Assembly: GCF_003258595.1 (NCBI RefSeq)
Contig: NZ_QHHQ01000002.1
Location: 682,001 to 746,000 of the forward strand
DNA length: 64,000 nt
From: Acuticoccus sediminis
Lineage (GTDB): Bacteria > Pseudomonadota > Alphaproteobacteria > Rhizobiales > Amorphaceae
Reading direction: 5' to 3'
Under the pieces are notes generated by a model that did no database searches, was not told where the DNA came from, and saw only the letters and a list, made by a program, of their open reading frames with translations. The position numbers were made by a program, and so were the translations under genes. Positions within the stretch are counted from its first letter, which is position 1, and each line of letters starts with the position of its first letter. This document shows positions 31,150-57,850 of the stretch, piece by piece.

Positions 31150-31328
31150 AGCCGGTCGAGCCGCGCCCGGCTGTGCACGTCAGCCATGCCGGGGGCGGCG
31201 GGACACTTCACACCTTAAGAAAGCAAGGCTAGGACTCTCCGGCACGGGCCGCGCGCCGATCTTCGGATGACGCCGACGATCGGCCCGCTTCGGTCCGTCG
31301 CATGGGCCGAACGGAGAGGACGCCGCTG

Positions 31329-38533: not shown

Positions 38534-38866
38534 TCAGTGGGAGATCATCCAGGGCCGGGCGGAGGGGAAGGACTTGGACCCGTCCGGCCGGTGGAGCGTT
38601 CCCCGGCTCTTCGACTTGCCGGAGCAGCAGCCGCAGCCGGGGCCGTGCCCGTCGCCGGAGCGCCTCGGGCTGTCAGCCGAGCGCTCGTTGGTGGCGTGGG
38701 CATGGCGCTTCGCTCCGTCCATGCCGGCGAGCCGGGGCGCCGTCATGATCGCCCGCGGTGCCGCCGTGCCGCAGGCGGGGCAGGGCGACGGATCGGCTGA
38801 CTCGGCCATCGGCCGGACCGCCTGGAACGCGCCGTGGCGGGTGCAGAGGTACTCGTAGGTCGGCAT
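38534..38866 (-). CDS. fmdB: FmdB-family zinc ribbon protein
   Basis: 110 residues beginning MPTYEYLCTRHG, the standard FmdB start, with a zinc ribbon completed by CPACGTAAP. A second Cys cluster, GPGCGCCSG, lies in the C-terminal half. FmdB was described as a putative regulatory protein of the amide operon in Methylophilus. It begins four bases after the formamidase stop and is the last gene of the minus-strand amide unit. Confidence 0.9.
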   Translation of the reverse strand: MPTYEYLCTRHGAFQAVRPMAESADPSPCPACGTAAPRAIMTAPRLAGMDGAKRHAHATNERSADSPRRSGDGHGPGCGCCSGKSKSRGTLHRPDGSKSFPSARPWMISH

Positions 38867-38870
38867 CGGT

Positions 38871-40103
38871 TCAGAGGTCCGGCGCGATCGGCACGTCCAC
38901 CGAGCCGTCGATGAACGGCGTCGGCCCGTCCTTGTTGGGCATCAGGTCGGCGTCGAAGATGTCGGTCGGGAGCCAGAGCGTGGCGCACGCGTTCGGCACG
39001 TCGACGACGCCGGAGATATGCCCCTGCACCGGCGCGGTGCCGAGAATCGCGTACCCCTGCGCGCCGGAGTAGCCGAACTTCTTCAGGTATTCGATCGCAT
39101 TGAGGCAGGCTTGGCGGTAGGCGATGTGGACGTCGAGGTAGTGCTGCGTGCCGGCCTCGTCGACGGAGATGCCCTCGAAGATCAGGAAGTCGTCGTACTT
39201 CGGGGTGATCGGCGAGGGGCGGAAGATCGGGTTCTTGATCCCGTACTTGGCCATGCCGCCCTTGATGAGGTCGACCTTGATGTGCAGCCAGCCGGCCATC
39301 TCGATGGCGCCGCAGAAGGTGATCTCGCCGTCGCCCTGGCTGAAGTGCAGGTCGCCCATCGAGAGGCCCGCCCCGTCGACATAGACGGGGAAGTAAACCT
39401 TCGAGCCGCGCGACAGGTCCTTGATATCGCAGTTGCCGCCATGCTCGCGGGGCGGGACGGTGCGGGCTCCGGTCGCCGCGGCCTTGTCGCGCGCGTCGCC
39501 GGCGAGCTTGCCCATGTGGGCGGTCTCACCGCCGTCCGGGAGGTTGGCGAGGCCGGGGACGCGGCCCGGGTCGGTGTCGAACAGCGCCTTCTCGCGCGTG
39601 TTCCACGTCTCCAGCATCTTGTGATCGGGCAGGCAGCCGATGAGGCCGGGATGGATGAGGCCGGCGTAGCGCACGCCCGGCACGTGGCGCGACTTGGTGA
39701 ACATGCCCTCGAAGTCCCAGATGGACTTCTGCGCGGCGGGGAAGTGGTCGGTCAGGAAGCCGCCGCCGTTGTTCTTGGAGAAGAAGCCGTTGAAGCCCCA
39801 GTTCATCGCCTCGACGGCGCCGATGTCGAGGATGTCGACCACCAGGAGGTCGCCGGGCTCGGCGCCCTTCACGCCGATCGGTCCGGAGAGGAAGTGGACC
39901 TGGCGCAGGTCCACGTCGCGCACGTCCGCGGCCGAGTCGTCGTTCTTGATCTGCCCGCCGGTCCAGTCATAGGTCTCGACGAGGAAGTCGTCGCCCGGCT
40001 CCACCCAGTCGCACATCGGGATATCGGGGTGCCAACGATTGTGGATCTTCTCGTTGGTGTAGGGGCTCTCGGAGAGATCGACCTTGATGAGGGTGCTCGC
40101 CAT
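38871..40103 (-). CDS. fmdA: Formamidase
   Basis: Cytoplasmic enzyme hydrolysing formamide (and poorly other short amides) to formate and ammonia. 410 residues, standard length for FmdA. It starts MASTLIKVDLSESPY, with IHNRWHPDIPMCDWVEPGDD and VHFLSGPIGVKGAEPGDLLV early on, GLIHPGLIGCLPDH in the middle and DLHFSQGDGEITFCGAIEM later, all diagnostic of FmdA. It lies after an amide/urea ABC transporter and before fmdB, so import and hydrolysis are encoded together. Confidence 0.95.
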   Translation of the reverse strand: MASTLIKVDLSESPYTNEKIHNRWHPDIPMCDWVEPGDDFLVETYDWTGGQIKNDDSAADVRDVDLRQVHFLSGPIGVKGAEPGDLLVVDILDIGAVEAMNWGFNGFFSKNNGGGFLTDHFPAAQKSIWDFEGMFTKSRHVPGVRYAGLIHPGLIGCLPDHKMLETWNTREKALFDTDPGRVPGLANLPDGGETAHMGKLAGDARDKAAATGARTVPPREHGGNCDIKDLSRGSKVYFPVYVDGAGLSMGDLHFSQGDGEITFCGAIEMAGWLHIKVDLIKGGMAKYGIKNPIFRPSPITPKYDDFLIFEGISVDEAGTQHYLDVHIAYRQACLNAIEYLKKFGYSGAQGYAILGTAPVQGHISGVVDVPNACATLWLPTDIFDADLMPNKDGPTPFIDGSVDVPIAPDL

Positions 40104-40203: not shown

Positions 40204-40956
40204 TCACACGGAGAGGAAGCGGGCGACCGCCGCCTCGTCGACGCCGTCGCGCGGGCTCTCGTGCGCGATGGTGCCGTTCTCGATCACGAGGATCCGGTCG
40301 GCGACGTCGAGCGCGAACGAGAGGACCTGCTCGGAGACGACCACCGAGAGGCCCCGCTCGTCGCGGATCTGGCGGAGCGTTCGCGCCATGTCGCGGATGA
40401 TGGACGGCTGGATGCCCTCGGTCGGCTCGTCGAGCAGCAGCACGGACGGGTTGGCCGCAAGCGCCCGCGCGATGGCGAGCTGCTGCTGCTGCCCGCCCGA
40501 GAGGTTGCCGCCGCGCCGCCGCCGCATCTCGAGGAGTACGGGGAAGAGGTCGTAGATCTCCTGCGGCACGTCGGTCCGTCCGGTGACGGTGAGGCCGGTC
40601 TCGATGTTCTCCTGCACCGTCATGGTGGAGAAGATCTGCCGGCCCTGCGGCACGTAGGCGAGGCCGCTCGCGACGCGCAGGTGGCTCTTCATGGCGGTCA
40701 CGTCGACGCCGCCGACGGCGATCGTGCCGGACTTCACCGGCACGAGGCCCATGAGCGACTTCATCAGGGTGGTCTTGCCCATGCCGTTGCGGCCCATGAC
40801 GGCGACGATCTCGCCGGGCGCGACGGCGAGGTCGATGCCGTGGATGACCTCGCTCTCGCCGTAGGAGACATGGAGGTCGGTGACGGTGAGGCCCCTCCCG
40901 GCGTCTGGCGCGCCGATGTGGGACGGAGCGAGGGCGGTGCGGAGACTTTGCAGCAT
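40204..40956 (-). CDS. urtE: Urea/short-amide ABC transporter ATPase UrtE
   Basis: 250-residue ATPase of the branched-chain amino acid type. Walker A GRNGMGKTTLMKSL, signature LSGGQQQQLAIARAL, Walker B LLLDEPTEGIQPSI and the switch region VVVSEQVLSF are visible. GxNxMGKTT and EGIQPSI are characteristic of UrtE compared with LivF. An N-terminal lead of about 24 residues precedes the ATPase. It is the last transporter gene before formamidase. Confidence 0.93.
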   Translation of the reverse strand: MLQSLRTALAPSHIGAPDAGRGLTVTDLHVSYGESEVIHGIDLAVAPGEIVAVMGRNGMGKTTLMKSLMGLVPVKSGTIAVGGVDVTAMKSHLRVASGLAYVPQGRQIFSTMTVQENIETGLTVTGRTDVPQEIYDLFPVLLEMRRRRGGNLSGGQQQQLAIARALAANPSVLLLDEPTEGIQPSIIRDMARTLRQIRDERGLSVVVSEQVLSFALDVADRILVIENGTIAHESPRDGVDEAAVARFLSV

Positions 40957-40958
40957 GG

Positions 40959-41726
40959 TCAATGCCCCAGGTAGACGTCGATGACGGCCGGGTCGGACTT
41001 CACCTTCTCCATCGAGCCTTCGGCGAGGATCTTGCCCTGGTGCAGCACGGTGACCTTGTGGGCGATGTCCTCGACGAACCCCATGTCGTGCTCGATGACG
41101 ATCACGGAGCGGCCTTCGGTGATGGTGTGGAGGAGCTCGGCGGTCTTGCGCCGCTCGGCGACGGACATGCCGGCGACGGGCTCGTCGAGCATCAGGAGCT
41201 CCGGTTCCTGGATGAGGAGCATGCCGATCTCGAGCCACTGCTTCTGGCCGTGGCTGAGGGTTGCGGCCTTCTGGTCGAGGTGGTCGGCGAGGAAGATCAT
41301 CTCCGCCACCTCCCGCACCCGGTCGATCACCTCGGCGCCGCGCTGGAAGAAGAGCGAGCCGAAGACGCCGTGCCCGCGCGGGTAGGAGATCTCGAGGTTC
41401 TCGAAGACGGTGAGGTCCTCGTAGATCGAGGGGTTCTGGAACTTGCGGCCGACGCCGGCGTGGACGATCTGGTCCTCGCGCATGTGGGTCAGCTCGCGGC
41501 CCTTGAACTTGACCGAGCCTTCCGTCGCGCGGGTCTTGCCGCAGAGAAGGTCGAGCACCGTCGTCTTGCCCGCCCCGTTGGGGCCGATGATGACGCGGAT
41601 CTCGCCGGTGTCGACGTAGAAGGTGAGGTCGTTGACCGCCTTGAACCCGTCGAAGGAGACCGTGAGATGCTCCACGGAGAGCAGGTAGTCGTTGTTGGTG
41701 TATTCCTGAGTGCTCTGCGCGTTCAT
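40959..41726 (-). CDS. urtD: Urea/short-amide ABC transporter ATPase UrtD
   Basis: 255 residues, LivG-type ATPase. Walker A GPNGAGKTTVLDLL, signature-like LSHGQKQWLEIGMLL, Walker B LMLDEPVAGMSV and switch His in IVIEHDMGFVE. The SHGQKQWLEIGM signature is diagnostic of UrtD. Spacing is two bases to urtE and five from urtC. Confidence 0.94.
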   Translation of the reverse strand: MNAQSTQEYTNNDYLLSVEHLTVSFDGFKAVNDLTFYVDTGEIRVIIGPNGAGKTTVLDLLCGKTRATEGSVKFKGRELTHMREDQIVHAGVGRKFQNPSIYEDLTVFENLEISYPRGHGVFGSLFFQRGAEVIDRVREVAEMIFLADHLDQKAATLSHGQKQWLEIGMLLIQEPELLMLDEPVAGMSVAERRKTAELLHTITEGRSVIVIEHDMGFVEDIAHKVTVLHQGKILAEGSMEKVKSDPAVIDVYLGH

Positions 41727-41731
41727 CGCCG

Positions 41732-42877
41732 TTACTCCGCAGGGTTGGGCTGCTGGACCGCCGGTTCGGCGATCACCGGGCCGCGGCTGCGGCGGAGGGC
41801 CTTGCGGATCGGCGTCTCGATCCAGTCGTTGTAGAGACCGGCGACACCGGACGGGAAGGCGAGCACCACGCCGATGAAGAGCGCGCCCATGGCGAAGAGC
41901 CAGAGTTCCGGGAAGCTCTCCGACAGCGCCGTCTTCGCCCAGTTGACGAGAAGGGTCCCGTACACGGCGCCGAAGATGGAGTAGCGCCCGCCGACCGCGC
42001 AGAAGATCACCATCTCGATCGACGGCACGATGCCGACGAAGGACGGCGACATGAAACCGACCTGCAGGGTGAACATCGCCCCGCCGATGCCGGCGAACGC
42101 GCAGCCGAGGCAGAAGACGAAGATCTTGAAGTTGGCGACGTCGTAGCCGGAGAAGCGCACCCGGTCCTCCCGGTCGCGGATCGCGATGAGCAGCCGGCCG
42201 AGCTTCGAGCGGCGCACGAAGTGGGCCATGAACAGGCACGCGAAGAGGAGGACGGCGTTGACGAAGTAGAGGATCACCTTCGCGTCGTCGGTGCGGATGT
42301 CCCAGCCGAGCATCGTCCGGAGGTCGGTGATGCCGTTGACGCCGCCGGTGTAGCCCTGCTGGCCGATGATGAGGATCGTCAGGATCGCGGCGATCGCCTG
42401 GGTGATGATGGCGAAGTAGACGCCGCCGACACGGCGGCGGAACATCGCGACGCCGATGACGAAGGAGAGCGCGACCGGCACCAGCACCACCGCGACGAGC
42501 GCGAAGGGGAGGTAGTGGAACGGTTCCCACCACCAGGGCAGGTACGTGACCTGGTTCCAGTCCATGAAGTCCGGGATGCCGGGGGTGGACTGGATGGCGG
42601 TGTTCTCGGGCGAGGAGGCCTCGAGCTTCAGGAACATCGCCATGCAGTAGCCGCCAAGGCCGAAGAAGACGCCCTGACCCAGCGAGAGGATGCCGCCCGC
42701 GCCCCAGCACAGCACCAGCCCGAGCGCGACGAACGCGTAGGTGAGGTACTTGCCGAAGAGGTTGAGGCGGAAGACGTCCATCGTCATCGGCAGGACGACG
42801 AAGATCAGCGCGGCGAGGACGACGAAGCCCATGAGCTCCGTCCACGTGAACATGCGTTGGGAGACGACGCGGTTCAT
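41732..42877 (-). CDS. urtC: Urea/short-amide ABC transporter permease UrtC
   Basis: 381-residue permease with about ten hydrophobic segments. GLVLCWGAGGILSLGQGVFF and GLGGYCMAMFLKLE are strongly conserved in UrtC; FGAVYGTLLVNWAKTALSE lies near the C-terminus. Seven bases from urtB. Forms the membrane channel with UrtB. Confidence 0.94.
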   Translation of the reverse strand: MNRVVSQRMFTWTELMGFVVLAALIFVVLPMTMDVFRLNLFGKYLTYAFVALGLVLCWGAGGILSLGQGVFFGLGGYCMAMFLKLEASSPENTAIQSTPGIPDFMDWNQVTYLPWWWEPFHYLPFALVAVVLVPVALSFVIGVAMFRRRVGGVYFAIITQAIAAILTILIIGQQGYTGGVNGITDLRTMLGWDIRTDDAKVILYFVNAVLLFACLFMAHFVRRSKLGRLLIAIRDREDRVRFSGYDVANFKIFVFCLGCAFAGIGGAMFTLQVGFMSPSFVGIVPSIEMVIFCAVGGRYSIFGAVYGTLLVNWAKTALSESFPELWLFAMGALFIGVVLAFPSGVAGLYNDWIETPIRKALRRSRGPVIAEPAVQQPNPAE

Positions 42878-42884
42878 GGCGGCC

Positions 42885-43820
42885 TCAGTTGCGGATCTTG
42901 AGGGTGAAGAGACCCTGGGGACGCAGCATCAGGATGCCGACGACCGTGAGCAGGGTGAGCACCTTCGCCATGGAGCCGGAGATGAAAAACTCCATGAGCG
43001 ACTGCGCCTGGCTGATCGAGAACGCCGAGGCGATCGTGCCCGCGAGGCTCGCCGCGCCGCCGAAGACGACCACCAGGAAGGTGTCGACGATGTAGAGCTG
43101 GCCGGACGAGGGGCCGGTGGAGCCGATCATCGTGAAGGCGGCGCCCGCGACGCCGGCGATCCCGCAGCCGATGCCGAAGGTCATCCGGTCGACGCGTTCG
43201 GTGTTGATGCCGACCGCGCCGGCCATCGGCCGGTTGAAGGTGACCGCGCGGACCTTCTTGCCCCACTGGCTCTTCATCAGGAGGATCGCGACGGCGACCG
43301 CGATGGCGAACGTGAGGACCATCACGAAGAGGCCGTTGATGGGCACCTCGATGAGGTCGGTCAGGGGCAGGGAGCCCATCATCCAGTCCGGGATGGTGAC
43401 GCCCACCTCACGCGCGCCGAACACCGACCGGTAGGTCTGCTGGAGGATGAGGCTCAGGCCCCAGGTGGCGAGCAGCGTGTCGAGCGGTCTTCGGTAGAGG
43501 TGCCGGATGAGGAGCCACTCGACCATCATCCCCAGCGCCCCCGCCGCGATGAAGGCGAGAATCATGGCGACGAAGAAGTAGATGCTGAACAGCGCCGGGA
43601 TGTGGTTGGCGAAGAAGTGCGAGCACAGGTACGTCACGTACGCGCCCAAAATCATGAACTCGCCGTGCGCCATGTTGATGACGCCCATCTGGCCGAAGAT
43701 GATGGCGAGGCCGAGCGCCATGAGGACGAGGACGGAGAAGAGGATCAACCCCGCGAAGCCTTGCATGGCAAAGATCGCGATGAGGTCGCTGGACGAATAG
43801 CCTTCGAACATCGGCGGCAC
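42885..43820 (-). CDS. urtB: Urea/short-amide ABC transporter permease UrtB
   Basis: 311-residue LivH-type permease with about eight helices. LGLAIIFGQMGVINMAHGEF and MILGAYVTYL in the first part and RMTFGIGCGIAGVAGAAFTM later are diagnostic. It lacks the long N-terminal extension of some UrtB proteins. A 122-base GC-rich spacer separates it from urtA, as is common after binding-protein genes. Confidence 0.93.
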   Translation of the reverse strand: MPPMFEGYSSSDLIAIFAMQGFAGLILFSVLVLMALGLAIIFGQMGVINMAHGEFMILGAYVTYLCSHFFANHIPALFSIYFFVAMILAFIAAGALGMMVEWLLIRHLYRRPLDTLLATWGLSLILQQTYRSVFGAREVGVTIPDWMMGSLPLTDLIEVPINGLFVMVLTFAIAVAVAILLMKSQWGKKVRAVTFNRPMAGAVGINTERVDRMTFGIGCGIAGVAGAAFTMIGSTGPSSGQLYIVDTFLVVVFGGAASLAGTIASAFSISQAQSLMEFFISGSMAKVLTLLTVVGILMLRPQGLFTLKIRN

Positions 43821-43942: not shown

Positions 43943-45214
43943 TTATTGGTAGCCTTCGGGGAACGGATCCGGCTCGACGAGGTCCTCGGTCTCGAACACC
44001 ACCTCGTACTGGCCGTCCGCCTTGGCGCGGCCGACGCGGGTGCGCGACCACAGGTGATGGTTCTCGTGGATGCGCACGTAGCCTTCCGGCGCCTGCGGGA
44101 ACTCGATGTCCGGCGAGGCCTCGCGCACCTTGTCGACGTCGAACGAGCCGGCCTTCTCCACCGCGAGCTTCCACAGCCACGGGCCGAGGTAGGCGGCCTG
44201 CGTCACGTCGCCGATCACCATGTCGCTGCCCCACATGTCCTTGAAGGCGGCGACGAAGGTGTCGTTGTTCTCGTTCTGAAGGCTCTGGAAATACTTCATG
44301 CAGGCGTAGGCGCCTTCGATGTTCTCGCCACCGATGCCGCGGATCTCGTCCTCGGTCACCGAGATGGTGAGGAGCACCGGCTTCTCCTCCGTCATGTCGA
44401 TGCCGGCGGCCTTCAGCTGCTTGTAGAAGGCGACGTTCGAGCCGCCGACGACGATGGCGTAGATCACGTCCGGCTTGCGCAGGCGGATCTTGTTGATCAC
44501 GGAGTTGAACTGCGTGTGACCGAGCGGGTAATACTCCTCACCGACCACCTTGAGGCCGAGCTTGTCCTCGATGTGCTTGCGCGCGATCTTGTTGGACGTG
44601 CGCGGCCAGATGTAGTCCGAACCGAGGAGGTAGAAGGTCTTCGCGCCCTTCTCGTTCGTCACCCAGTCGATGCCGGCGATGATCTGCTGGGTGGCCTCCT
44701 GCCCGGTGTAGATGACGTTGGGCGACTGCTCGAGGCCTTCGTAGAAGGTCGGGTAGTAGAGCATGCCGTTGTACTGCTCGAACACCGGCAGCACCGCCTT
44801 GCGGGAGGCGGAGGTCCAGCAGCCCATCACCGAGGCGACCTTGTCGTTGACGAGGAGCTTCCTCGCCTTCTCGGCGAAGGTCGGCCAGTCGGACGCGCCA
44901 TCCTCCTGGATGAACTGGATCTTGCGGCCGAGCACGCCGCCCTGGGCGTTGATCTGGTCGATGGCGAGCTTCTCGGCCTGCACCGAACCGGTCTCGGAGA
45001 TCGCCATCGTGCCGGTGACGGAGTGCAGGATGCCCACCGTCACGGTGTCGTCGGTCACGGCAAGGCCGCTCGTGTTGACCTGCGCGGTCGGATAGTCCTG
45101 CGCGCGCAGGCCCTTGGGCATGAAGAGGCTGGCGGATAGGGCCGCGGAGCCCAGGAGCATGCCGCGCCGGCTGAGGGGCGGGAAGATCCCGCGGGTCTTG
45201 TCGTTGTCGCTCAT
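43943..45214 (-). CDS. urtA: Urea/short-amide-binding protein UrtA
   Basis: Periplasmic receptor of the importer, 423 residues. A twin-arginine-like signal (LSRRGMLLGSAALSASLFM) precedes the mature protein. VGILHSVTGTMAISETGSVQ, then GGVLGRKIQFIQEDGASDWP and WTSASRKAVLPVFE are diagnostic of the UrtA/FmdD group. Linked to formamidase and not urease here, so formamide or another short amide may be the real ligand (inference). ATG at 45214 has GAGG six bases upstream; an ATG two codons earlier is in frame. Confidence 0.92.
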   Translation of the reverse strand: MSDNDKTRGIFPPLSRRGMLLGSAALSASLFMPKGLRAQDYPTAQVNTSGLAVTDDTVTVGILHSVTGTMAISETGSVQAEKLAIDQINAQGGVLGRKIQFIQEDGASDWPTFAEKARKLLVNDKVASVMGCWTSASRKAVLPVFEQYNGMLYYPTFYEGLEQSPNVIYTGQEATQQIIAGIDWVTNEKGAKTFYLLGSDYIWPRTSNKIARKHIEDKLGLKVVGEEYYPLGHTQFNSVINKIRLRKPDVIYAIVVGGSNVAFYKQLKAAGIDMTEEKPVLLTISVTEDEIRGIGGENIEGAYACMKYFQSLQNENNDTFVAAFKDMWGSDMVIGDVTQAAYLGPWLWKLAVEKAGSFDVDKVREASPDIEFPQAPEGYVRIHENHHLWSRTRVGRAKADGQYEVVFETEDLVEPDPFPEGYQ

Positions 45215-45619
45215 GGTCATCCTCGCATCGGGAAAGGCGGGGAGCACCTCGGGCCGCCGGCGGCGGGCCGCCCCGAGGCGCAACGGGTCGAAGACGCGCG
45301 ACGGCGCATCCGGAAGAGGGCGCCGCGTGGCGCCAGCGGTGAGAGGGGAGCGCCGTCCGGCGCCGGGGTTCGCAGCGCCGCGGGGCGCAGGGGACGATGG
45401 GGGTCAGCTTGGTTGGCGATACCCCAAACGGACAATGGGTGGTCTTACCCATGGCGCCGGGCAGTCTTCCCCGGCATCGTCGATCCGGATGGTGCGAAGA
45501 TTGCAAAGGATCCGTCGCTCGGGACGAATCATGACAAAGGTCTGCTGCCTGCGATTGCAGCCGTTTCGGCGGCAGCACTTGCAGTTCTGTGTGCCCGGAG
45601 GAGCATTGAAAGGGGGGAG
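45215..45619. other. Divergent control region between urtA and the sensor gene
   Basis: 405 bases with no credible gene. The frame of the sensor gene is open upstream to 45413, but the extension looks non-coding and the ribosome site sits at 45610-45619. This spacer must contain the promoters for both the transport-formamidase operon and the sensor. The clearest element is the inverted repeat at 45435-45452. TTGCAA and ACGAAT 17 bases apart near 45500 are a weak promoter candidate toward the sensor gene. Confidence 0.6.
45435..45452. promoter_or_regulatory. ATGGGT-N6-ACCCAT inverted repeat
   Basis: Perfect six-base arms with a six-base spacer lie midway in the urtA/sensor spacer, an arrangement that suits a LuxR-type dimer such as the response regulator encoded at 48981. 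The assignment is positional. Confidence 0.5.
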
Positions 45620-48600
45620 ATGACCAAGGTGCGGACCATTACGCGCCAGCGTCGGACGTACAACCAGTGGGTGGCCAACGAAACACTGGAAGACTTCGCG
45701 CTGCGGTTCACCGCCCGGCGGGCGCGCCGCTGGACCCCGCTGCGCGTGGCCAACACCGCCCTCGGCTCCATCTCATTCCTCGCGCTGGAAGCGATCGGCG
45801 CCGCGATCACGCTGTCCACCGGCTTCGACAACGCGGTCGTCGCCATCATGATCGTCGGCGCGATCCTCTTCCTGACGGGCCTTCCCATCGCCTACCACGC
45901 GGCGAAGGCGGGCGTGGACATCGACCTCCTGACCCGGGGCGCGGGCTTCGGCTACATCGGCTCGACCATCACCTCGCTGATCTACGCCTCGTTCACGTTC
46001 ATCTTCTTCGCCCTCGAGGCCGCGATCCTCGCCATGGCGCTGGACCTCTGTTTCGGCGTCCCGCTCTGGATCGGCTATCCGCTCAACGCGCTCGTCGTCA
46101 TCCCGCTGGTGACGCACGGCTTCACCAAGATCTCGATCTTCCAGAAATGGACGCAGGCGCCCTGGATCGCGCTCAACATCCTGCCGTTCCTGTGCGTCCT
46201 CTATGCGGGCAACGTCAGCTTCGACGAGTGGATCGGTTTCACGCCGGAGGGCAGGCCCGAGGGGCTCGACCTCCTGATGCTGGGCGCGGCATGCGGCGTC
46301 GTCCTGTCGCTCATCGCGCAGATCGGCGAGCAGGTGGATTTCCTGCGCTTCCTGCCGGAGCCGACGACGCGCGCAGAGCGCCGGCGGTGGTGGCTGGCGC
46401 TGATCGCGGCCGGGCCGGGCTGGTCGGCGCTCGGCGTCCTGAAGATGCTGGCGGGGTCCTACCTCGCGGTCCTCGCCCTCTCCGGCGGCGCCTCGTACGC
46501 GGCGGCGGCCGACCCGACGCACATGTACCTCGCCGCCTTCTCCACGGCGATCGCCGACCCGCGGATCGCGCTGATCCTCGCCGGCACCTTCGTCGTTATC
46601 GCCCAGCTCAAGATCAACGTCACGAACGCCTACGCGGGGTCGATCGCCTGGTCGAACTTCTTCGCGCGGCTGACGCACGCCCATCCGGGGCGCGTCGTCT
46701 GGCTCGTCTTCAACGTCACCATCGCGCTGATGCTGATGGAGCTCGGCGTCTTCGCCGCGCTGGAGGCGACGCTCACCATCTACGCCACCGTCGCGGTCGC
46801 ATGGGTCGGGGCGATCGTCGCCGACCTCACCGTCAACAAGCCGCTCGGCCTCAGTCCGGAGGGGATCGAGTTCCGCCGCGGCTACCTCTACGACATCAAC
46901 CCCGTCGGTGTCGGCGCGATGGCGGGGGGCGTCGCGCTCGGCTTTTGCGCGCACGGCGGCCTCCTCGGCGTCACCGCGGCCGCGCTCGGCACGCCGATCG
47001 CCCTCGTCGCCGCCTTCGCGCTCGCGCCGCTGATCGCGTGGGCGACGGACGGGCGCTACTATATCGCCCGCCCGCACGAGCCGGCCCACGTCCACGACGC
47101 GGCGCACGGGGGCGAGGCGGAGTGCACCGTCTGCGGCAACGCCTTCGAGTCCGACGACACGCTCTACTGCCCGTTCTACACCGGCCCGATCTGCTCGCTG
47201 TGCTGCTCGCTCGACGCCCGGTGCGGCGACGTCTGCCGGCCCCACGCCCAGCTCCGCGAGCAGGCCGGCCACTTCGTCGACGTCGTCTTTCCGCCGAGGA
47301 TCGGGCGGCTCCTCAAGACGCGCTACGCGGCGTTCGCCGCGCTGATGACGCTCGCCGCGCTCGTCATGGGCATCCCGCTCCGCTACGTCGCGGTCGTCGC
47401 CAACGATCCCGCCGCGCTGACGACGCCGACGCAGGCCGTGTGGCTCTCCTTCGCGATCCTCGCCTTCGTCGCCGGCATCGCCATCTGGCTCTTCGTCCTC
47501 GCGCAGGAGGCATCGCGCACGGCCATGCGCGAGAGCGACGAGCACGCGCAGCTCCTGATGCGCGAGATCCGCGCCCACAAGCGCACCGACGCCCAGCTCC
47601 GCCGCGCCCGGCAGGAGGCGGAGGCGGCCAACGGCGCAAAGAGCCGCTACGTCGTCGGCATCACCCACGAGCTGCGCACGCCGCTCAACGCGATCCTCGG
47701 CTACGCGCAGCTCCTCGAGGCGGATCCCGACCTGCCGCCGCGGCGGCGCGAGGCGGTCTCCGTGATGCGGCGCAGCGGCGAGCACCTGTCGGGCCTCATC
47801 GAGGGGCTCCTCGACATCTCGAAGATCGAGGCCGGGCGGCTGGAACTCCACCCCGGCACAGTGAACCTGCCGGAGTTCCTCGACCAGCTGGTGGCCATCT
47901 TCCGCATGCAGGCGGCCGACCGCGGGCTCGCCTTCAAGTTCGTCATCGAGGACAAGATCCCCGACTGGGTGCGCTGCGACGAGCACCGCCTGAAGCAGAT
48001 CCTGATGAACCTCCTTACCAACGCCATCCGCTACACCGAGCGCGGCGAGGTGGAGTTCAAGGTCGGTTACCGGTCCGAGGTCGCGCGCTTCACCGTGTCG
48101 GACACCGGGATCGGCATCGACCCGAGCGAGATCCAGAAGATCTTCATGCCGTTCGCGCGGCTGTCGCGGCCGGGCGGGCCGGTGGTGCCCGGGACCGGGC
48201 TCGGCCTCACCATCACCAAGCTCCTCACCGAGATCCAGGGCGGGGAGCTGAAGGTCGCCTCGATCCCCGGCGTCGGCAGCCGCTTCTCGGTGCGGCTCAT
48301 GCTGCCGCGGGTGCACCAGACGACGTCGGTGCCGGTCAAGCACATCCGCGTCGTGACCGGCTATCTCGGTCCCGGCCGCACCATCATGGTGGTGGAGGAC
48401 GAGCCGGACCACCGCCGCCTGCTGGAAGACGTACTGCGCCCGATCGGCTTCAATCTCTTCCTCGCCGCCGCCGCGGAGGAGGCGCTCGACCTACTGGGGC
48501 AGGTGCGGCCGGACCTCTTCCTCATCGACGTGAAGCTCCCCGGGCTGAGCGGCTGGGACCTCGCCGAGCGGATCCGCGCGGTGGGAAGCGACGCGCCGAT

Positions 48601-48991
48601 CGTGATGGTGTCCGCCCACGCCTCCGACCGCCTCGCCGAGGAGGAGCGGGCGGGGCTGACCGACGAGTTCATCGCCAAGCCCATCAACGTGGAAGACCTG
48701 TTGGTGCGGCTGGAGCGCCAGCTCGGCCTGACCTACACGGTCGCCGGGGCCGGACTGGCGCCGGGCGTCGCCGCGCCACGCCCGCGCCTCTCGCGCGAGC
48801 GGATCGCCGAGCTGCGCCGCTTCGCACAGATCGGCTGGCCGCGCGGCCTCACCGAGACGCTGGCGGCGATCGAGGAGGAAGACCCCGACCTTTCCGGAAC
48901 CGTGGCGCACCTCAAGGGGATCGTCGCCACGTTCGACATGTCGCGCCTCGATACGGTGCTCACAGAGATGGAGGCCGCCGATGAACGCTAG
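45620..48991 (+). CDS. NCS1 permease - histidine kinase - receiver fusion sensor
   Basis: 1123-residue hybrid sensor. Residues about 1-480 are an NCS1 purine/cytosine permease-like module with some 12 helices (ETLEDFALRFTARRAR, GYIGSTITSLIYASF, NAYAGSIAWSNFFARLTHAH). At about 501-540 is a Cys-rich module (CTVCGNAFES, CPFYTGPICSLCCS, CGDVC). Two more helices follow (about 575-640). The kinase has its phospho-His in ITHELRTPLNAILGYAQLLE (about 682) and ATPase motifs LLTNAIRYT and GTGLGLTITKLL; a receiver starts at about 920 with Asp in LFLIDVKLPGLSG. ATG at 45620 sits behind AGGGGGGAG. Divergent from urt-fmd, so it likely senses amides or related nitrogen compounds (inference). Confidence 0.9.
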   Translation: MTKVRTITRQRRTYNQWVANETLEDFALRFTARRARRWTPLRVANTALGSISFLALEAIGAAITLSTGFDNAVVAIMIVGAILFLTGLPIAYHAAKAGVDIDLLTRGAGFGYIGSTITSLIYASFTFIFFALEAAILAMALDLCFGVPLWIGYPLNALVVIPLVTHGFTKISIFQKWTQAPWIALNILPFLCVLYAGNVSFDEWIGFTPEGRPEGLDLLMLGAACGVVLSLIAQIGEQVDFLRFLPEPTTRAERRRWWLALIAAGPGWSALGVLKMLAGSYLAVLALSGGASYAAAADPTHMYLAAFSTAIADPRIALILAGTFVVIAQLKINVTNAYAGSIAWSNFFARLTHAHPGRVVWLVFNVTIALMLMELGVFAALEATLTIYATVAVAWVGAIVADLTVNKPLGLSPEGIEFRRGYLYDINPVGVGAMAGGVALGFCAHGGLLGVTAAALGTPIALVAAFALAPLIAWATDGRYYIARPHEPAHVHDAAHGGEAECTVCGNAFESDDTLYCPFYTGPICSLCCSLDARCGDVCRPHAQLREQAGHFVDVVFPPRIGRLLKTRYAAFAALMTLAALVMGIPLRYVAVVANDPAALTTPTQAVWLSFAILAFVAGIAIWLFVLAQEASRTAMRESDEHAQLLMREIRAHKRTDAQLRRARQEAEAANGAKSRYVVGITHELRTPLNAILGYAQLLEADPDLPPRRREAVSVMRRSGEHLSGLIEGLLDISKIEAGRLELHPGTVNLPEFLDQLVAIFRMQAADRGLAFKFVIEDKIPDWVRCDEHRLKQILMNLLTNAIRYTERGEVEFKVGYRSEVARFTVSDTGIGIDPSEIQKIFMPFARLSRPGGPVVPGTGLGLTITKLLTEIQGGELKVASIPGVGSRFSVRLMLPRVHQTTSVPVKHIRVVTGYLGPGRTIMVVEDEPDHRRLLEDVLRPIGFNLFLAAAAEEALDLLGQVRPDLFLIDVKLPGLSGWDLAERIRAVGSDAPIVMVSAHASDRLAEEERAGLTDEFIAKPINVEDLLVRLERQLGLTYTVAGAGLAPGVAAPRPRLSRERIAELRRFAQIGWPRGLTETLAAIEEEDPDLSGTVAHLKGIVATFDMSRLDTVLTEMEAADER

Positions 48992-49907
48992 CCCGCATCG
49001 CCGGACCGTGCTGGAGGAACGCGGCAACCTCGTGCTGGTGGTGGACGACGCACCCGACACGCTGGCGATGCTGATCGACACGCTCGAGGCGAACGGCCTC
49101 ACCGTGCTCGTCGCGCGCGACGGGGAGACGGCGCTCTCGCTGGTCGGCCGCATCGAGCCCGACGCCATCCTGCTCGACGCGGTGATGCCGGGGCTCGACG
49201 GCTTCGAGACGTGCCGCCGTCTGAAGTCCGGTGCCGGCGCGACCCCCGCGCCGATCATCTTCATGACGGGGCTGACGGGGCCGGAGCACATCGTCGCCGG
49301 CCTCTCGGCGGGCGGCGTCGACTATGTGACGAAGCCGGTGAACGCGGACGAACTGATCGCGCGCGTCGCGGTCCACGTTTCCAACGCGAGGATGATGCGC
49401 GAGGCGCGTAGCGCGCTCGACGCGGTCGGCCAGCCGCTGATGGCCGTCTCGACGGCCGGACGCGTCGCGTGGACCTCGGCGAACGCGCTGTCGATGGCGG
49501 CGTCGGTGCTCGACGGCGAGCGGGCGGAGGTCGTGGCGCCGAGTCTTCTCGCCTGGCTGAAGCGCAGCGTCGCGACGGCGGTCTCGGCCGCGACGCCGTG
49601 GCAGGCCCCCGAGGGACCGCTGACGATCACCTACATCGGCCGCACGACGTCGGGCGACGTCCTGGTGCGCCTTGCCGCCGATCCGGTCGAGGACGAGCGG
49701 CGCCTCGGCGACCATTTCGGCCTCACCGACAGAGAGGCCGAGGTCCTGAACTGGATCGTCAAAGGCAAGTCCAACCGCGACATCGCCGAGATCCTGGCGA
49801 TCAATCCCGGCACGGTGAACAAGCACCTCGAGAAGATCCTCGCCAAGCTCGGCGTCGAGAACAGGACCGCCGCGGCGGTCTCCGCCGTGCGCGCGCTCGG
49901 CGCCTGA
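48981..49907 (+). CDS. LuxR-type response regulator partner of the fusion sensor
   Basis: 308 residues: receiver (LVLVVDDAPDTLAMLIDTLE, phospho-Asp in AILLDAVMPGLDG, Lys in YVTKPVNADEL), a middle region of about 90 residues that I cannot name, and a C-terminal LuxR helix-turn-helix (LTDREAEVLNWIVKGKSNRD, then INPGTVNKHLEKILAKLGVE). It overlaps the sensor gene by 11 bases, making it the obvious output. Likely target: the urt-fmd operon (inference). Confidence 0.92.
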   Translation: MNASPHRRTVLEERGNLVLVVDDAPDTLAMLIDTLEANGLTVLVARDGETALSLVGRIEPDAILLDAVMPGLDGFETCRRLKSGAGATPAPIIFMTGLTGPEHIVAGLSAGGVDYVTKPVNADELIARVAVHVSNARMMREARSALDAVGQPLMAVSTAGRVAWTSANALSMAASVLDGERAEVVAPSLLAWLKRSVATAVSAATPWQAPEGPLTITYIGRTTSGDVLVRLAADPVEDERRLGDHFGLTDREAEVLNWIVKGKSNRDIAEILAINPGTVNKHLEKILAKLGVENRTAAAVSAVRALGA

Positions 49908-49974: not shown

Positions 49975-51117
49975 TCAGACGCTCTCGCCGGCGACGAGGA
50001 TGCGGCGCGGCGTGTGCGTCAGGAGGCGTGCGCCGCCGTCCTCCACCACCACCGTCTCGGAGAGGGCGAGGCCCTGGGCGGTGGCGTAGACGTGGAAGGT
50101 CTGCCCCGCCTCGAACGGCCAATCGGCGCCCGGGTGCAGGCTGAGCGAGGTGTCCGACGAGCGTGGCGTCTTGGCGTAGAGGCCGACCTGGTAGCCGGTG
50201 ATGTTCGGGTAGTCGTCGCGCAGGCCCGCCGCGATCAGGCCCCGGCGCATGATCGCGTCGACGTCCGCTGCCTTCGCGCCCGGCCGCATCGCCGCGAACT
50301 GCTCGTCCTGGAGGGCGACGAGGCGGTCCATCACCGTGCGCTCCCCGGCGGTCGGCTCGCCCAGCTTGATGGAGCGCATGAAGCGGCACGAGTAGTAGCT
50401 CACCCGGGGCACCAGCTCGACGTGGAGGATGTCGCCTTCTGAGAGGGCGTCGTCGTGCAGCGTCGCATGCAGGAAGCCCATGCCGTGCCCGTCCGCCTCG
50501 GCGCGGCGCGAGATCGAGATCGGGCCGACCCAGTAGTCGTCCGCCCCTTCCGTCAGGTAGTGGAAGGCGGCGATCGCGGACGCGTCGCGCGGGCGCATCC
50601 CCGGCTTCAGCGCACGGGCGATCGCCGCCATCGCACCGCTGCCGATGCGGCCGGCCGCCTCGATGGTGGCCACCTCGGCCGCGTCCTTGACGGCGCGCAG
50701 GTGGCCCGAGGACTGCGGGATGTCGACGAAGGTCGTCCCCGGCAGAAGCTCCGCCAGACGGTCGCGCGTATGGGCCGTGAAGCCGAACGAGGTGTAGTCC
50801 GCGCCGACCGTCCCGGGCGCGAACCGACGGATCTCGGCGGCGACGCGGGCGTGCGCGTCCTCGTGGTCGGCGTAGGCGACGACGTTCGGGACCCAGGTCG
50901 CGGCGCGGCAGGGTACCTCGTCGATCCGGCGCAGGACGATGACCGGATCGCCCTCCGCCGGGACGATGGCCGCCCGGTAGAAGGTCTCCGACACGGTGTA
51001 GCCGGTCAGCCAGACCATCATTTCGGCGTGGTCGCAGATGTAGACGTCCGCGCCGGCGGCCGCCATCGCATCCCGCAACCTGGTGAGACGCGCGTCGTAG
51101 GGTGCGGGCGCGCTCAT
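49975..51117 (-). CDS. Creatinase-like M24 family protein
   Basis: 380 residues with the pita-bread fold of M24 enzymes. The usual dinuclear-metal ligands are missing: the first Asp position reads GDILHVELVPRV, the second is RFMRS in place of DITRT, and the His motif is GYQVGL rather than GHGVGL. The stretch GDIL followed by P, YY and R resembles metal-free creatinase. A catalytic-type His is kept in GFLHATLHDD. It is therefore more likely an amidinohydrolase or other C-N hydrolase than a proline peptidase (inference). Its ATG overlaps the stop of the M20-like gene; last gene of the operon. Confidence 0.78.
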   Translation of the reverse strand: MSAPAPYDARLTRLRDAMAAAGADVYICDHAEMMVWLTGYTVSETFYRAAIVPAEGDPVIVLRRIDEVPCRAATWVPNVVAYADHEDAHARVAAEIRRFAPGTVGADYTSFGFTAHTRDRLAELLPGTTFVDIPQSSGHLRAVKDAAEVATIEAAGRIGSGAMAAIARALKPGMRPRDASAIAAFHYLTEGADDYWVGPISISRRAEADGHGMGFLHATLHDDALSEGDILHVELVPRVSYYSCRFMRSIKLGEPTAGERTVMDRLVALQDEQFAAMRPGAKAADVDAIMRRGLIAAGLRDDYPNITGYQVGLYAKTPRSSDTSLSLHPGADWPFEAGQTFHVYATAQGLALSETVVVEDGGARLLTHTPRRILVAGESV

Positions 51118-52331
51118 GCCTCGGCGACCTCGCACACGTCGAGGATCGCCAGCGTGTACATCTTCACGCAGTCGATGAACTGGGTCCTGCGCACGCGCTC
51201 GTCCGGCATCGTGTTGAACTCCCCGCCGGGGCCGCAGACGATCCCCTCCATGCCCGCGGCCGCGAGGTGCGCGGCGTCGGTGCCGTAGAAGGCGGGCGGA
51301 CGGATCGCCCCGGTCGGCTGCGGGCTGCCGCGCACCGCCTCGTAGGCGGCGTTGACGACCTTCACGATCCGGGACTGCGGGTCCACCTCGAACGGCGGCA
51401 TGCGCGGGCGGCCGCCGTCGTTGGCGTCGATGGTCCACTTGAGCCCCGGATATTCCAGCGCGAGCGCCTCCAGCAGCCGCTCGAGGTCGGCGATGACGCC
51501 CGGGATCGACTGGCTCGGCGCGTAGCGGCAGGTGCCCTTGATCTGCGCGTGGTCGGCCACCTGCGGCGGGCGCCACTCGTAGAACTCCTCGCCGAGGCCG
51601 GCGCGCATCACGCCGACGTGGCCACGGTTCACCGAACGGTGCGCCGCGCTCGCGGCGCCGGAGAACGTGATCCCGTCGATCCGGTCGACCAGCTTCGCGG
51701 CGGCCGCCAGCGCGTCGCACGCCTCCTCGCGCTTGGAGAGGTGGCGCGTGTCGCCGACGAGGTCGATCGTGAACGTGAAGGCGCCCGCGTGGAGCGTCAG
51801 CGCCTGCAGGTCGGTCGGCTCGGAGTTGATGAAGTAGTCGGCGCGGGTGCCGTGCTCGATCATCCTGACCGTGCCGACGCCGCCCTGCAGCTCGCCGATG
51901 ACGAACGTCAGGATGACGTCGCCCTTCAGTTTGACGCCCGCCTTCAGCAGCGTCTCGACGGCGCACAGATATGCCGCGTCGCCCGCCTTCATGTTCGAGA
52001 CGCCGATCCCGTAGATGAAATCGTCGTCCACCACGCCGCCCCACGGGTCGACGGTCCAGCCGGACGTCGCGGGGTTGGTGTCGAGGTGGCCGTTGAAGAG
52101 GAGCGAGGCGCCGCCGCCCGTCCCCTTCAGACGGCCGATCGCGTTGACGCGGTCGCCGACGACCGGCTGCAGCTCCGCCTCGAGGCCGAGACCGTCGAGG
52201 ATCTCGGCCATGTGGCGGGCGAGGGCGATCTCGCCCTCGGTCTCGGAATAGCTCTTGTGACGCACCATGTCGGCGAGCCGCGCGATGCACGCGTCCTCGT
52301 CGATGTGGGCCAGGATCTCGTCGGGCGTCAC
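51114..52331 (-). CDS. M20-family deacylase/peptidase (ArgE/DapE-like)
   Basis: 405 residues. The M20 fold is shown by LLFNGHLDTNPATSGWTVDP, GIGVSNMKAGDAAYL, the lid-domain His in VGDTRHLSKREE, and a C-terminal GPGGEFNTM. Two classic positions differ: SNMK replaces SDMK (bridging Asp to Asn), and GELQGGVGT replaces DEE-GG. I have the impression that some ArgE/DapE subfamilies share these variants, so activity is not excluded. GTG start with GGAGG nine bases upstream, four bases after the ABC ATPase stop. Probably processes the imported compound. Confidence 0.85.
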   Translation of the reverse strand: MTPDEILAHIDEDACIARLADMVRHKSYSETEGEIALARHMAEILDGLGLEAELQPVVGDRVNAIGRLKGTGGGASLLFNGHLDTNPATSGWTVDPWGGVVDDDFIYGIGVSNMKAGDAAYLCAVETLLKAGVKLKGDVILTFVIGELQGGVGTVRMIEHGTRADYFINSEPTDLQALTLHAGAFTFTIDLVGDTRHLSKREEACDALAAAAKLVDRIDGITFSGAASAAHRSVNRGHVGVMRAGLGEEFYEWRPPQVADHAQIKGTCRYAPSQSIPGVIADLERLLEALALEYPGLKWTIDANDGGRPRMPPFEVDPQSRIVKVVNAAYEAVRGSPQPTGAIRPPAFYGTDAAHLAAAGMEGIVCGPGGEFNTMPDERVRRTQFIDCVKMYTLAILDVCEVAEA

Positions 52332-52335
52332 TGGT

Positions 52336-54384
52336 TCAGGCCTCCACTTGGGTCTTGAAGCGCCATACCGGAGGCGCGTTCTTCAGCTCGTCGATGGGGA
52401 TGTGGCAGAGGAGGCCGTGGTCCGGCCGGGCCTCGCGCCACGGGGGAGGGGTGGTCGCGCAGATGTCGCCGACCCGGCGGGGGCAGCGGCTCTCGAACGG
52501 GCATCCGGCCAGCCGCTCGGTGCGGCGCGGCAGCGTGCCGGTCAGGCGGATGCGGCGCGTCTCGCTCATCGGGTCGATCGACGGCGAGGACGACATCAGC
52601 GCCTCGGTGTAGGGGTGGTAGGGCGTCTCGTCGAGCGAGGCGACGCTGCGCGTCTCGACGATCTCGCCCAAATACATCACGGCGACGCGGTGGGCGACGT
52701 GGCGCAGGATGGCGAGGTCGTGGGTGATGAACACCATCGCGCAGCCGGTGTCGCGCTGGATCTCGGCGAGGAGGGCCACGATGGCCGCCTGCACCGCCGC
52801 GTCGAGGCCGGACGTCACCTCGTCGCAGATGATCACCTCCGGCTGCGCGGCGATCGCCCGCGCGATGGCGACGCGCTGCTTCTCGCCGCCGGAGAGCTGG
52901 TGCGGGTAGCGCTCGGCGTAGTCGGCGGGCAGGCGCACCCGCTCCAGGATGCGGCCGATCTCGGCGCGCCGCTCGCCGGGCGAAAGCCCCCGGTAGAGCT
53001 TGAGCGGGCGGGACAGCAGCGTCGCGATGGAGTGGCGCGGGTTGAGCGAGTTGTCCGGGTTCTGGAAGACCATCTGCACCCGGCCGCGGTAGGCGCGGTC
53101 GATCGACGCCACGGTGATCCCGTCGAGCTTCACCTCGCCCTCGAACGGGATGAGGCCGACGAGCGCCCGCGCCAGGGTGGACTTGCCGCAGCCCGATTCC
53201 CCGACGAGCCCCAGCGTCTCGCCGCGGTTCAGGGTCAGGCCGACGTCGTTGACGGCGCGGACCTTTCGCGAGCGGCCCGTCAGGCGGTCGAGGATCCGGT
53301 CGCGCCCGTACGTGACGCGAAGGCCGCTGCCCTCGAAGACCCGCACCGGGCGGATGTCGCCGGGTTCCGTGCCGTGGGCGCTTCCCGCGTCCGGCTGGCC
53401 GGCGATCTCCTCGGCGCGGGCACAGGCGACGCGCCGCTCGCCCATGTCATGGAGCCGCACCGGAGCGGCGTCGCAGATCTCGGGCCGGTGGTAGGCGCAG
53501 GAGCCGGAGTAGATGCAGGGCGGCGGCGTGCCCCGCCGCGGCGCGGGCCTTGCGCCGGAGATGTCGAGCGAGCGCCCCGTCCGCGTGTCCGACGGGCGCG
53601 GCAGGCTGGCGAGGAGCGCGCGGGTGTACGGGTGGCGCGGGGCGGCGAAGAGCGGCCCCGGCTCGGCCACCTCGACGATGCGCCCGCCGTAGATCACGGC
53701 GATGCGGTCGGCGATCTCCGCAACGGTGCCGAGGTCGTGGGAGATGAAGAGGCCCGACACCCCGGTCTTCGCTTGCAACTCGCGGAAGAGGTCGAGAAGG
53801 GTCGCCGCCGTGGTGGCGTCGAGCGCAGACGTCGGCTCGTCGAAGAGGATCAGCTCCGGGTTGCATGCGAAGGCGAGGGCGAGGACGATGCGCTGCTTCT
53901 CGCCGCCCGACACCTCGTGCGCGTAGCGCGTCAGCATGGCGTCGGGGTCCGGCAGGCCCACCATCGCGATGAGCTCCTTGGCGCGGGCCCGGCCGGCGGC
54001 GCCCTCGAGGCCGGCGTGGCGGGCGAGGAGCTCCTCGAGGTGGCTGCCGAGCGTCTGCGTCGGGTCGAGCGCGGCACCGGCGTTCTGGAACACCATCGCG
54101 ATGCGCTTGCCGCGGACCGCCTCCAGTGCGGTCTCGCCCATCGTGGTGAGGTTCTCGCCGGACAGCAGGATTTCGCCGCCCTCGTGGGCGACGCGGCCGG
54201 GAAGGTCGCGGATGATGGCGTTGGCGAGCGAGGATTTCGCCGATCCGCTCTCGCCCACGAGGCCGAGAACCTCGCCGCGGCCGATGGTCAGCGTGACGTC
54301 GTCGAGGATCCGCACGGGACCGCTCGCCGTCTTGTAGCTCAGCGCGTAGTCGCGGATCGAAAGGACGGGTGGCGTGTCTGTCAT
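52336..54384 (-). CDS. Dipeptide/oligopeptide ABC transporter, fused double ATPase
   Basis: 682 residues carrying two complete ATPase halves, equivalent to DppD plus DppF. Half 1: Walker A GESGSAKSSLAN, signature VSGGEKQRIVLAL, Walker B LILFDEPTSALD. Half 2: GESGCGKSTLAR, LSGGEKQRVAIARA, VIICDEVTSGLD. Both halves end in the Cys-containing oligopeptide-transporter tail (CIYSGSCAYHRPEIC; CPFESRCPRRVGDIC). The first Walker A has Ala where GKS normally has Gly. ATG overlaps the upstream permease stop by four bases. Confidence 0.92.
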   Translation of the reverse strand: MTDTPPVLSIRDYALSYKTASGPVRILDDVTLTIGRGEVLGLVGESGSAKSSLANAIIRDLPGRVAHEGGEILLSGENLTTMGETALEAVRGKRIAMVFQNAGAALDPTQTLGSHLEELLARHAGLEGAAGRARAKELIAMVGLPDPDAMLTRYAHEVSGGEKQRIVLALAFACNPELILFDEPTSALDATTAATLLDLFRELQAKTGVSGLFISHDLGTVAEIADRIAVIYGGRIVEVAEPGPLFAAPRHPYTRALLASLPRPSDTRTGRSLDISGARPAPRRGTPPPCIYSGSCAYHRPEICDAAPVRLHDMGERRVACARAEEIAGQPDAGSAHGTEPGDIRPVRVFEGSGLRVTYGRDRILDRLTGRSRKVRAVNDVGLTLNRGETLGLVGESGCGKSTLARALVGLIPFEGEVKLDGITVASIDRAYRGRVQMVFQNPDNSLNPRHSIATLLSRPLKLYRGLSPGERRAEIGRILERVRLPADYAERYPHQLSGGEKQRVAIARAIAAQPEVIICDEVTSGLDAAVQAAIVALLAEIQRDTGCAMVFITHDLAILRHVAHRVAVMYLGEIVETRSVASLDETPYHPYTEALMSSSPSIDPMSETRRIRLTGTLPRRTERLAGCPFESRCPRRVGDICATTPPPWREARPDHGLLCHIPIDELKNAPPVWRFKTQVEA

Positions 54385-56167: not shown

Positions 56168-56279
56168 TCAGTCCTCGTTCGCTGGGGTGCGCAGACGGGC
56201 CGCGATCGGCCGCCCGCCGGCGCACGGAACTCGAAACACGACGCGGGAGGGCCGGCGCGGGGCCGGCCGTCCGCCAGCG

Positions 56280-57830: not shown

Positions 57831-57850
57831 GAAAGGATCTCCTGTGTCGA

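Follow-up and report, generated by a model that had tools for sequence, protein, structure and literature searches.

Fusions of a transporter to a sensor kinase are known, among them CbrA of Pseudomonas (PMC13022988) and Ks-Amt5 of Kuenenia stuttgartiensis (PMC5764959). We analyzed a 64,000-nucleotide stretch of the Acuticoccus sediminis genome (contig NZ_QHHQ01000002.1, positions 682,001 to 746,000; hereafter the window, in whose numbering coordinates are given) that encodes a sensor of this kind with an NCS1-type permease as its N-terminal part. The sensor gene is followed by a gene for a LuxR-type regulator and is divergent from urtABCDE-fmdAB, genes for amide uptake and formamide hydrolysis. 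We propose, with a probability of roughly 0.7 based on sequence comparisons, that the permease module, a former transporter, is a receptor for formamide or urea and that, with its LuxR-type partner, it switches on uptake and hydrolysis. Transporter-kinase sensors are a known kind; the NCS1 version, with a testable regulon, is new.

The first-pass annotation of the window had pointed to CbrA as a precedent for transporter-kinase fusions, and the available part of the CbrA report bears this out (PMC13022988). CbrA (SLC5-STAC-PAS-histidine kinase) resembles the window sensor in having an N-terminal transporter fold on a kinase, a small cytoplasmic domain between the two, and a role in nutrient sensing; it differs in having an SLC5 rather than an NCS1 fold, STAC and PAS domains where the sensor has an eight-cysteine block and two hydrophobic segments, and histidine as its signal (PMC13022988). 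The ammonium sensor kinase Ks-Amt5 likewise joins a transporter domain to a kinase and responds to a nitrogen compound, but its fold is that of Amt (PMC5764959, available excerpt). No STAC domain was among the Pfam matches of the window sensor at E-values up to 1. CrbS/CrbR pairs an SLC5-type sensor with a LuxR-type regulator. As with the window pair, a sensor kinase and its cognate regulator there serve a nutrient gene, acsA, according to the accessible part of the report (PMC5436829).

A formamidase cluster homologous to that of the window, fmdCABDEF of Methylophilus methylotrophus, is inducible by urea and formamide; the available text of that paper names no sensor (PMC10781810). In Ectopseudomonas guguanensis, genes for a hybrid kinase and a LuxR-type regulator lie next to a second urtABCDE operon; the accessible sections name neither the permease nor a mechanism (PMC13296017). 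The corresponding excerpts on Pseudomonas veronii (PMC13209695) and Klebsiella CG307 (PMC13060141) discuss urt-formamidase clusters, the Klebsiella operon for urea use, and name no sensor. A full-text literature search, judged by titles and the openings of abstracts, returned no NCS1-kinase fusion among the matches listed, and no paper naming a receptor for induction by urea or formamide was found. Both compounds are common sources of nitrogen.

The sensor, its regulator and the divergent operon

The sensor and regulator genes have the following features:

45620..48991, plus strand: sensor kinase, 1123 residues (open frame, Pfam, 164 aligned relatives)
45677..47071, plus strand: NCS1-type permease module, residues ~20-484 (homology to two PF02133 members)
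47123..47236, plus strand: eight-cysteine block, residues 502-539, with C502, C505, C517, C525, C528, C529, C535 and C539 (alignment)
47324..47500, plus strand: two extra hydrophobic segments, residues ~569-587 and ~609-627 (hydropathy peaks only)
47639..47836, plus strand: HisKA, residues 674-739, with H683 (PF00512, 64.7 bits)
47978..48304, plus strand: HATPase_c, residues 787-895 (PF02518, 82.7 bits)
48383..48712, plus strand: C-terminal receiver, residues 922-1031, with D970 (PF00072, 74.9 bits)
48981..49907, plus strand: LuxR/NarL-type response regulator, 308 residues (Response_reg and GerE, Pfam; NPGT in the recognition helix)

The 1123-residue translation of the sensor frame contains zero internal stops and reads, in order, permease module, eight-cysteine block, two hydrophobic segments, HisKA, HATPase and receiver. 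The last three domains (HisKA, HATPase_c, Response_reg) all scored above their Pfam cut-offs, and H683, N797 and D970, invariant in 29 of 29 relatives, mark the protein as a hybrid histidine kinase. The placement of a transporter-family domain N-terminal to a kinase in one polypeptide is kept in 164 aligned sensors.

The divergent genes begin 399 bp away, measured between the start codons of urtA and the sensor gene:

43943..45220, minus strand: urtA, substrate-binding protein, ATG at 45220 (TIGR03407, 549.6 bits; cut-off 492.75)
42885..43820, minus strand: urtB, short form, 311 residues (TIGR03409)
41732..42877, minus strand: urtC (TIGR03408)
40959..41711, minus strand: urtD, start codon tentative (TIGR03411)
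40204..40956, minus strand: urtE, start codon tentative (TIGR03410)
38871..40103, minus strand: fmdA, formamidase (NF045496, 755 bits; cut-off 500; PF03069)
38534..38866, minus strand: fmdB, zinc-ribbon protein (TIGR02605 and NF053663)

UrtA-E and FmdA exceed their NCBIfam cut-offs on one strand, and FmdB passes both the FmdB zinc-ribbon and the RPWMISH models; the RPWMISH motif (NF053663) forms its C-terminus, beside the zinc ribbon. The layout given in the first-pass annotation was confirmed throughout: translation, Pfam and homology place the NCS1 permease-like module, cysteine-rich block, kinase and receiver in one frame, the regulator gene (Response_reg and GerE) overlaps the end of that frame by 11 bp, and all seven urtABCDE-fmdA-fmdB genes, identified by NCBIfam matches, are minus-strand genes oriented divergently to the sensor gene.

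Linkage to urea and amide genes and a shared palindrome

Relatives of the sensor were collected from several samples. A scan of species genomes gave at least 591 stretches encoding a relative of the module, a figure that may include free-standing permeases and several stretches per locus, and the best 80 were kept. In the class sample (Alphaproteobacteria), 20 of 289 genomes had the sensor, the source genome of the window included; these are 20 of 22 matching genomes, after exclusion of a permease locus (L041/L072) and a fragment (L042). The phylum sample yielded 57 places with E <1e-90 in 398 genomes, reduced to 56 sensor loci when G545, on a 4,779-base contig, was dropped. The system is also plasmid-borne: 529 PLSDB records had a match, with Klebsiella foremost among the labels given (342 of the 529). 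Our combined set of 165 sensor loci, which was not deduplicated, comprises the window, 29 from the genus and class sample, 80 named loci, four from plasmids and 51 from the phylum sample; a 552-residue permease (L221) had been removed from 166 loci. Leaving out a 204-residue frame (L124) gave the 164 aligned sensors.

We observed urt-fmd genes, urea-type urt genes, urease, formamidase or a sister permease within ~10 kb of the sensor at 153 of the 165 loci. A urtA of the fmd type was present at 113: 102 with FmdA, two with FmdA and urea-type urt genes, and nine without detected FmdA, most of these nine lying at contig ends. The remaining loci had urea-type urt genes (17), urea-type urt genes and urease (12), urease (8), a separate formamidase (2), a free-standing permease (1) or none of these (12); six of the last group are at contig ends, and six have no such genes within ~10 kb. 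Wherever the urt-fmd locus is complete (102 of 102), urtA adjoins the sensor gene on its upstream side and is divergent from it. In Novosphingobium, the sensor and regulator genes lie 3' of ureDABCEFG and a ureJ-like gene.

At 55 of the 56 phylum loci, urt, fmd or urease genes were found within ~10 kb, and the sequence of the last ends 375 bp upstream, inside urtA; by type, 36 are urt-fmd loci, seven have urea-type urt genes and urease, six urease, four urea-type urt genes, two a separate formamidase, and one is that ending inside urtA. In the class sample, urt genes were present at 16 of 20 sensor loci and absent from four. FmdA exceeded its cut-off in 17 of the 289 class genomes, and the sensor was found in 14 of these 17, compared with six of the 272 genomes lacking FmdA (Fisher p 1e-16, relatedness ignored). 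Ten of the 14 have both within ~10 kb, one lies at a contig end, and in three close relatives of Tistrella a different contig carries FmdA; the three FmdA genomes without a sensor are G130, G222 and G338. Urease alpha exceeded its cut-off in 80 of 289 genomes, comprising 18 of the 20 with a sensor and 62 of the 269 without (Fisher p 2e-9, relatedness likewise ignored). The first-pass annotation had named a lack of co-occurrence in other genomes as grounds for abandoning its proposal; co-occurrence was found, both in the class genomes with FmdA and at the phylum loci.

Five genomes of the phylum sample have two sensors. In four, one copy lies at urt-fmd genes and the other at urease; in the fifth, one is at urt-fmd genes and the other at a separate formamidase. 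The split between urt-fmd and urease fits ligand specialization.

We compared the gaps in which an opposite-strand urtA or ureA start lies 60-900 bp upstream of the sensor (129 loci, 98 after removal of near copies). The strongest dyads in the 98 gaps all belong to one palindrome, with the consensus ATACGTCANNTGACGTAT. Its core, TACG-N8-CGTA, occurs in 62 of the 98 gaps; 100 shuffles gave 0.18 on average and never more than 2, and among 478 ordinary windows of the same loci just 2 contained it. The core was present in 53 of 82 fmd-type gaps and nine of 16 urea- or urease-type gaps. With relaxed half-sites, 93 of 98 gaps matched (shuffles, 10.6 with a maximum of 19; ordinary windows, 32 of 478), but half-site variants beyond TACG were admitted after these regions had been viewed, so that the TACG core is the sole clean test. 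Of 20 genomes scanned for the full site, with as many as two mismatches allowed, ten had one or two sites, nine of them with one in the sensor gap and at most one other per genome; the other ten had no full site, some since the inner bases differ. In the Tistrella-like genomes, which have urt-fmd on another contig, the core lies 5' of the sensor in three of three, and in the one such genome examined for it, the core is also upstream of the remote urtA. A scan for the sigma-54 consensus, made without a shuffle control, gave promoter-like sites in eight of the 98 gaps.

The window gap holds a variant of this palindrome:

45435..45452, no strand assigned: putative operator ATGGGTGGTCTTACCCAT (ATGGGT-N6-ACCCAT), variant palindrome in the urtA/sensor gap

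Allowing one mismatch at most, a search of the window finds this site and no other (expected, 0.06), and the source genome holds a single exact copy, plus three at one mismatch. The closest two relatives, L043 and L044, also have ATGGGT-N6-ACCCAT in their gaps, and neither genome contains a further exact copy. Hybrid sites, with one half of each kind, were found at other loci, such as L054. The recognition helix of the regulator varies with the site: NPGT occurs in three of 159 regulators, which are exactly the three facing TGGG/TGGG sites, and SPAT occurs in five regulators at gamma-proteobacterial urease-linked loci, where the sites found show altered inner bases. The regulatory link is well supported at the level of sequence, and the regulator may bind the palindrome, which is conserved and shares one clade-wide joint change with it.

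These results support the regulatory proposal made in the first-pass annotation, with one change. Linkage and the palindrome in the gap support a connection of the pair to uptake and hydrolysis, but the pair is not tied to formamidase in particular, other members being at urease or urea-type urt genes. Because of these other members, the ligand would be a small urea-like amide, perhaps differing between members.

The permease module, the cysteine block and their relatives

Assignment of the N-terminal module came through relatives. The sensor itself matched neither PF02133 in Pfam, where kinase and receiver families alone exceeded their cut-offs, nor TIGR00800, and residues 1-627 matched no NCBIfam family and, at E up to 10, no PDB sequence. 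A Pfam scan of 23 aligned sensor relatives gave sub-cut-off oddities only for the permease part, and a profile of those 23 against PDB gave one RING-like match at chance level (E 6.6). By contrast with the sensor, a 535-residue Klebsiella permease (P0003), 43% identical to the module over 522 residues, tail included, passes PF02133 (37.7 bits; cut-off 23.5). A 473-residue permease (L072), 25% identical and retrieved with the sensor query in the class sample, passes it as well (36.8 bits against the same cut-off), and aligned with the sensor-family profile in hhalign with a probability of 97.1 over 427 columns.

The hhalign controls against the family profile scored 4.5 (codB), 1.8 (gabP), 0.6 (putP), 0.4 (betT), 0.1 (mntH) and 0.3 (allW), and other NCS1 proteins 4.4 (L164), 0.5 (L163) and 0.2 (L165). 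Since codB, allW and L163-L165 also score low, most NCS1 proteins appear too distant for direct detection. The module is, on these comparisons, a member of the NCS1 superfamily that lies too far from codB and allW to be detected directly. We had considered resting the NCS1 label on a direct profile match as sole evidence; this was dropped, as no curated model matches, and replaced by homology to the two PF02133 members. The NCS2, SSF, BCCT, APC, NRAMP, CNT and ClC folds were rejected, with single-protein hhalign probabilities of at most 1.8. The NCS1 affiliation given in the first-pass annotation thus stands on the two PF02133 relatives; the closest relatives found are permeases at urease genes, not nucleobase carriers.

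These free-standing sister permeases lie directly 3' of ureG in Klebsiella and 5' of ureEFGJDABC in A. lwoffii. In A. baumannii (L208:4334-10560), the sensor and regulator genes are divergent from a sister permease, in a stretch with no urt or urease match. The urease-linked permeases resemble the sensor in their 43% identity, common core residues and CxxC...ICxxC tail, and differ from it in lacking a kinase, in having Phe at the position of E57 and in having four tail cysteines. At urease clusters of Klebsiella and Acinetobacter, PF02133-type permeases (L172:8944-10548 and L207:8959-10566) are annotated as 'cytosine permease' or 'hypothetical protein', the former in Klebsiella and the latter in A. 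lwoffii. They are candidate urea permeases, of a type for which we found no description.

Every one of the 164 aligned sensors has all eight cysteines. The 70 residues around the block matched no Pfam or NCBIfam family, the best match being a C2H2 finger at E 0.21. A four-cysteine counterpart of the block (CxxC ... ICxxC) forms the C-terminus of the Klebsiella free-standing permease, and a Paracoccus aminophilus permease (L174:6071-7699), encoded beside hydantoinase A/B genes, ends in a similar CxxC...CxxC tail, an indication that such tails occur on more distant NCS1 proteins too. Because free-standing permeases already carry such tails, the block seems to descend from an old permease tail that became larger in the sensors. 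It is likely to bind a metal.

In the permease core, Q234, E237, F125, T126 and K275 are common to the sensors and four sister permeases and missing from two other NCS1-like proteins; K331, N333 and N336 are likewise kept. Position 57, part of the first hydrophobic segment, is occupied by Glu in each of the 162 sensors with coverage there, whereas the four sister permeases have Phe. The helix holding this position matters for transport in LeuT-fold proteins. This pattern suggests that the binding site was retained and the helix altered for signaling. Among well-filled columns, G397 and V396 show the largest difference between fmd-linked and urea-linked members; picked from ~480 columns without correction, they serve as leads only.

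Proposed mechanism, competing explanations and family history

The architecture, its conservation, the linkage, the palindrome and the match between palindrome and regulator are established at the level of sequence; from them we infer a ligand, a route of phosphotransfer, the sign of control (activation as against repression) and the fate of residual transport. An NCS1-type permease of the urease-linked branch, fused via a cysteine-rich connector to a hybrid histidine kinase, would bind a small urea-like amide in its central site, most likely formamide and next urea for the window copy. The module would then change shape and the kinase would phosphorylate. The phosphoryl group would pass to the LuxR-type regulator, via the C-terminal receiver or directly, and the regulator would bind the palindrome at 45435-45452 and turn on urtABCDE-fmdAB, so that the imported amide would be hydrolyzed to ammonia and formate. 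If this is right, NCS1 would join SLC5 (CbrA) and Amt as the third transporter fold to serve as receptor of a kinase, and the free-standing permease, the urease-linked sensor and the formamidase-linked sensor would form a natural series. With the palindrome and the linked genes in hand, the question of the ligand is directly testable.

Several observations weigh against this proposal. Six lone loci (L064, L066, L067, L068, L150 and L154) have no urea or amide genes in reach; near L067 and L154 there is a weak variant site only, and near L150 none. The TACG core is not in the window gap, where the TACG-type matrix reached a best score of -5.3, matched by 15 of 100 shuffles; the matrix also misses the L043 and L044 sites. 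Because it misses the window site, the window operator is a variant recognized post hoc, and because the three NPGT regulators are one clade, the joint change of site and regulator counts once rather than several times. A sensor-less congener (G001) carries an exact copy of the variant elsewhere in its genome, and six of seven other genomes of the genus lack the sensor (one has it). No urease gene is listed among the neighbors of a sister permease from Arthrobacter (41% identical).

Retention of the central polar residues, shared with free-standing permeases, in 164 of 164 sensors would equally be expected of a true transceptor, able to transport its ligand as well as sense it, as CbrA moves histidine through its SLC5 domain (PMC13022988, available part), rather than of a transport-dead receptor. 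The radical exchange at position 57 between sensors and sister permeases argues otherwise, and we consider a transceptor possible but doubtful. It is rather unlikely that every member senses urea, with formamide uptake and hydrolysis as a side branch of a urea regulon. The sister permeases lie at urease genes, urease is present in 18 of the 20 sensor genomes, including all 14 with FmdA, and urea-linked and fmd-linked members have the palindrome core in common. However, the division of four of the five two-sensor genomes between urt-fmd and urease, together with recognition helices that differ in at least G546 and G687, suggests separate signals, and the urease of the window genome is on another contig that holds no exact copy of the window site.

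The strict conservation of the eight cysteines raises a further explanation, in which the signal is a metal or redox state at the block and the permease is an anchor only. This is improbable: the Klebsiella and Paracoccus permeases already end in cysteine tails, so the block looks inherited and structural, conservation of the permease core is no less strict, and the linked genes have to do with amides rather than metals. Finally, the neighborhood might be co-inherited while the pair regulates something else, as the six of 165 loci that stand alone would allow. The presence of the palindrome in the shared promoter gap, with at most one other site per genome in nine genomes, makes this very improbable. 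We accordingly favor a receptor for formamide or urea that controls the divergent genes.

The history of the family was addressed with two trees, which disagree. In a careful tree of 46 rows, 38 sensors lie on one side of a branch (98/95) and four urease-linked permeases outside it, with the caveats that the bootstrap was unsettled (0.955) and that the outgroup is not one side of any branch. A quick tree of 95 rows, which carried a long-branch warning, places the permeases inside the sensors, next to L237, and implies that linkage switched between fmd and urea genes a minimum of four times. With cautious preference for the careful tree, one fusion followed by several re-pairings would be the simplest reading. 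A more elaborate scenario is tentative: a permease of the urease branch would have been fused once to a hybrid kinase, its zinc-ribbon-like tail doubled into an eight-cysteine gate coupling ligand movement to the kinase, and the sensor later re-paired several times between the regulons of urease and formamidase, while operator, regulator and ligand site changed to match. If that were true, this family would supply the inducer receptor that has been missing for the amide and urea uptake operons of Proteobacteria.

Two loci, L217 and L219 (L219:3367-9555, minus strand), encode variant sensors of 894-899 residues without the C-terminal receiver. At L219, the variant sensor is followed by a receiver-HisKA-HATPase protein and then by a formamidase ~70% identical to that of the window; no LuxR-type regulator was detected beside this receiver-less sensor.

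Elsewhere in the window, further kinase and receiver frames at ~25007-26924 and 31311-31718 matched the kinase and receiver parts of the sensor. Beyond the regulator gene, at 50000-58300 on the minus strand, lie frames named by eye as a peptidase, an amidohydrolase-like protein and a dipeptide-type ABC transporter.

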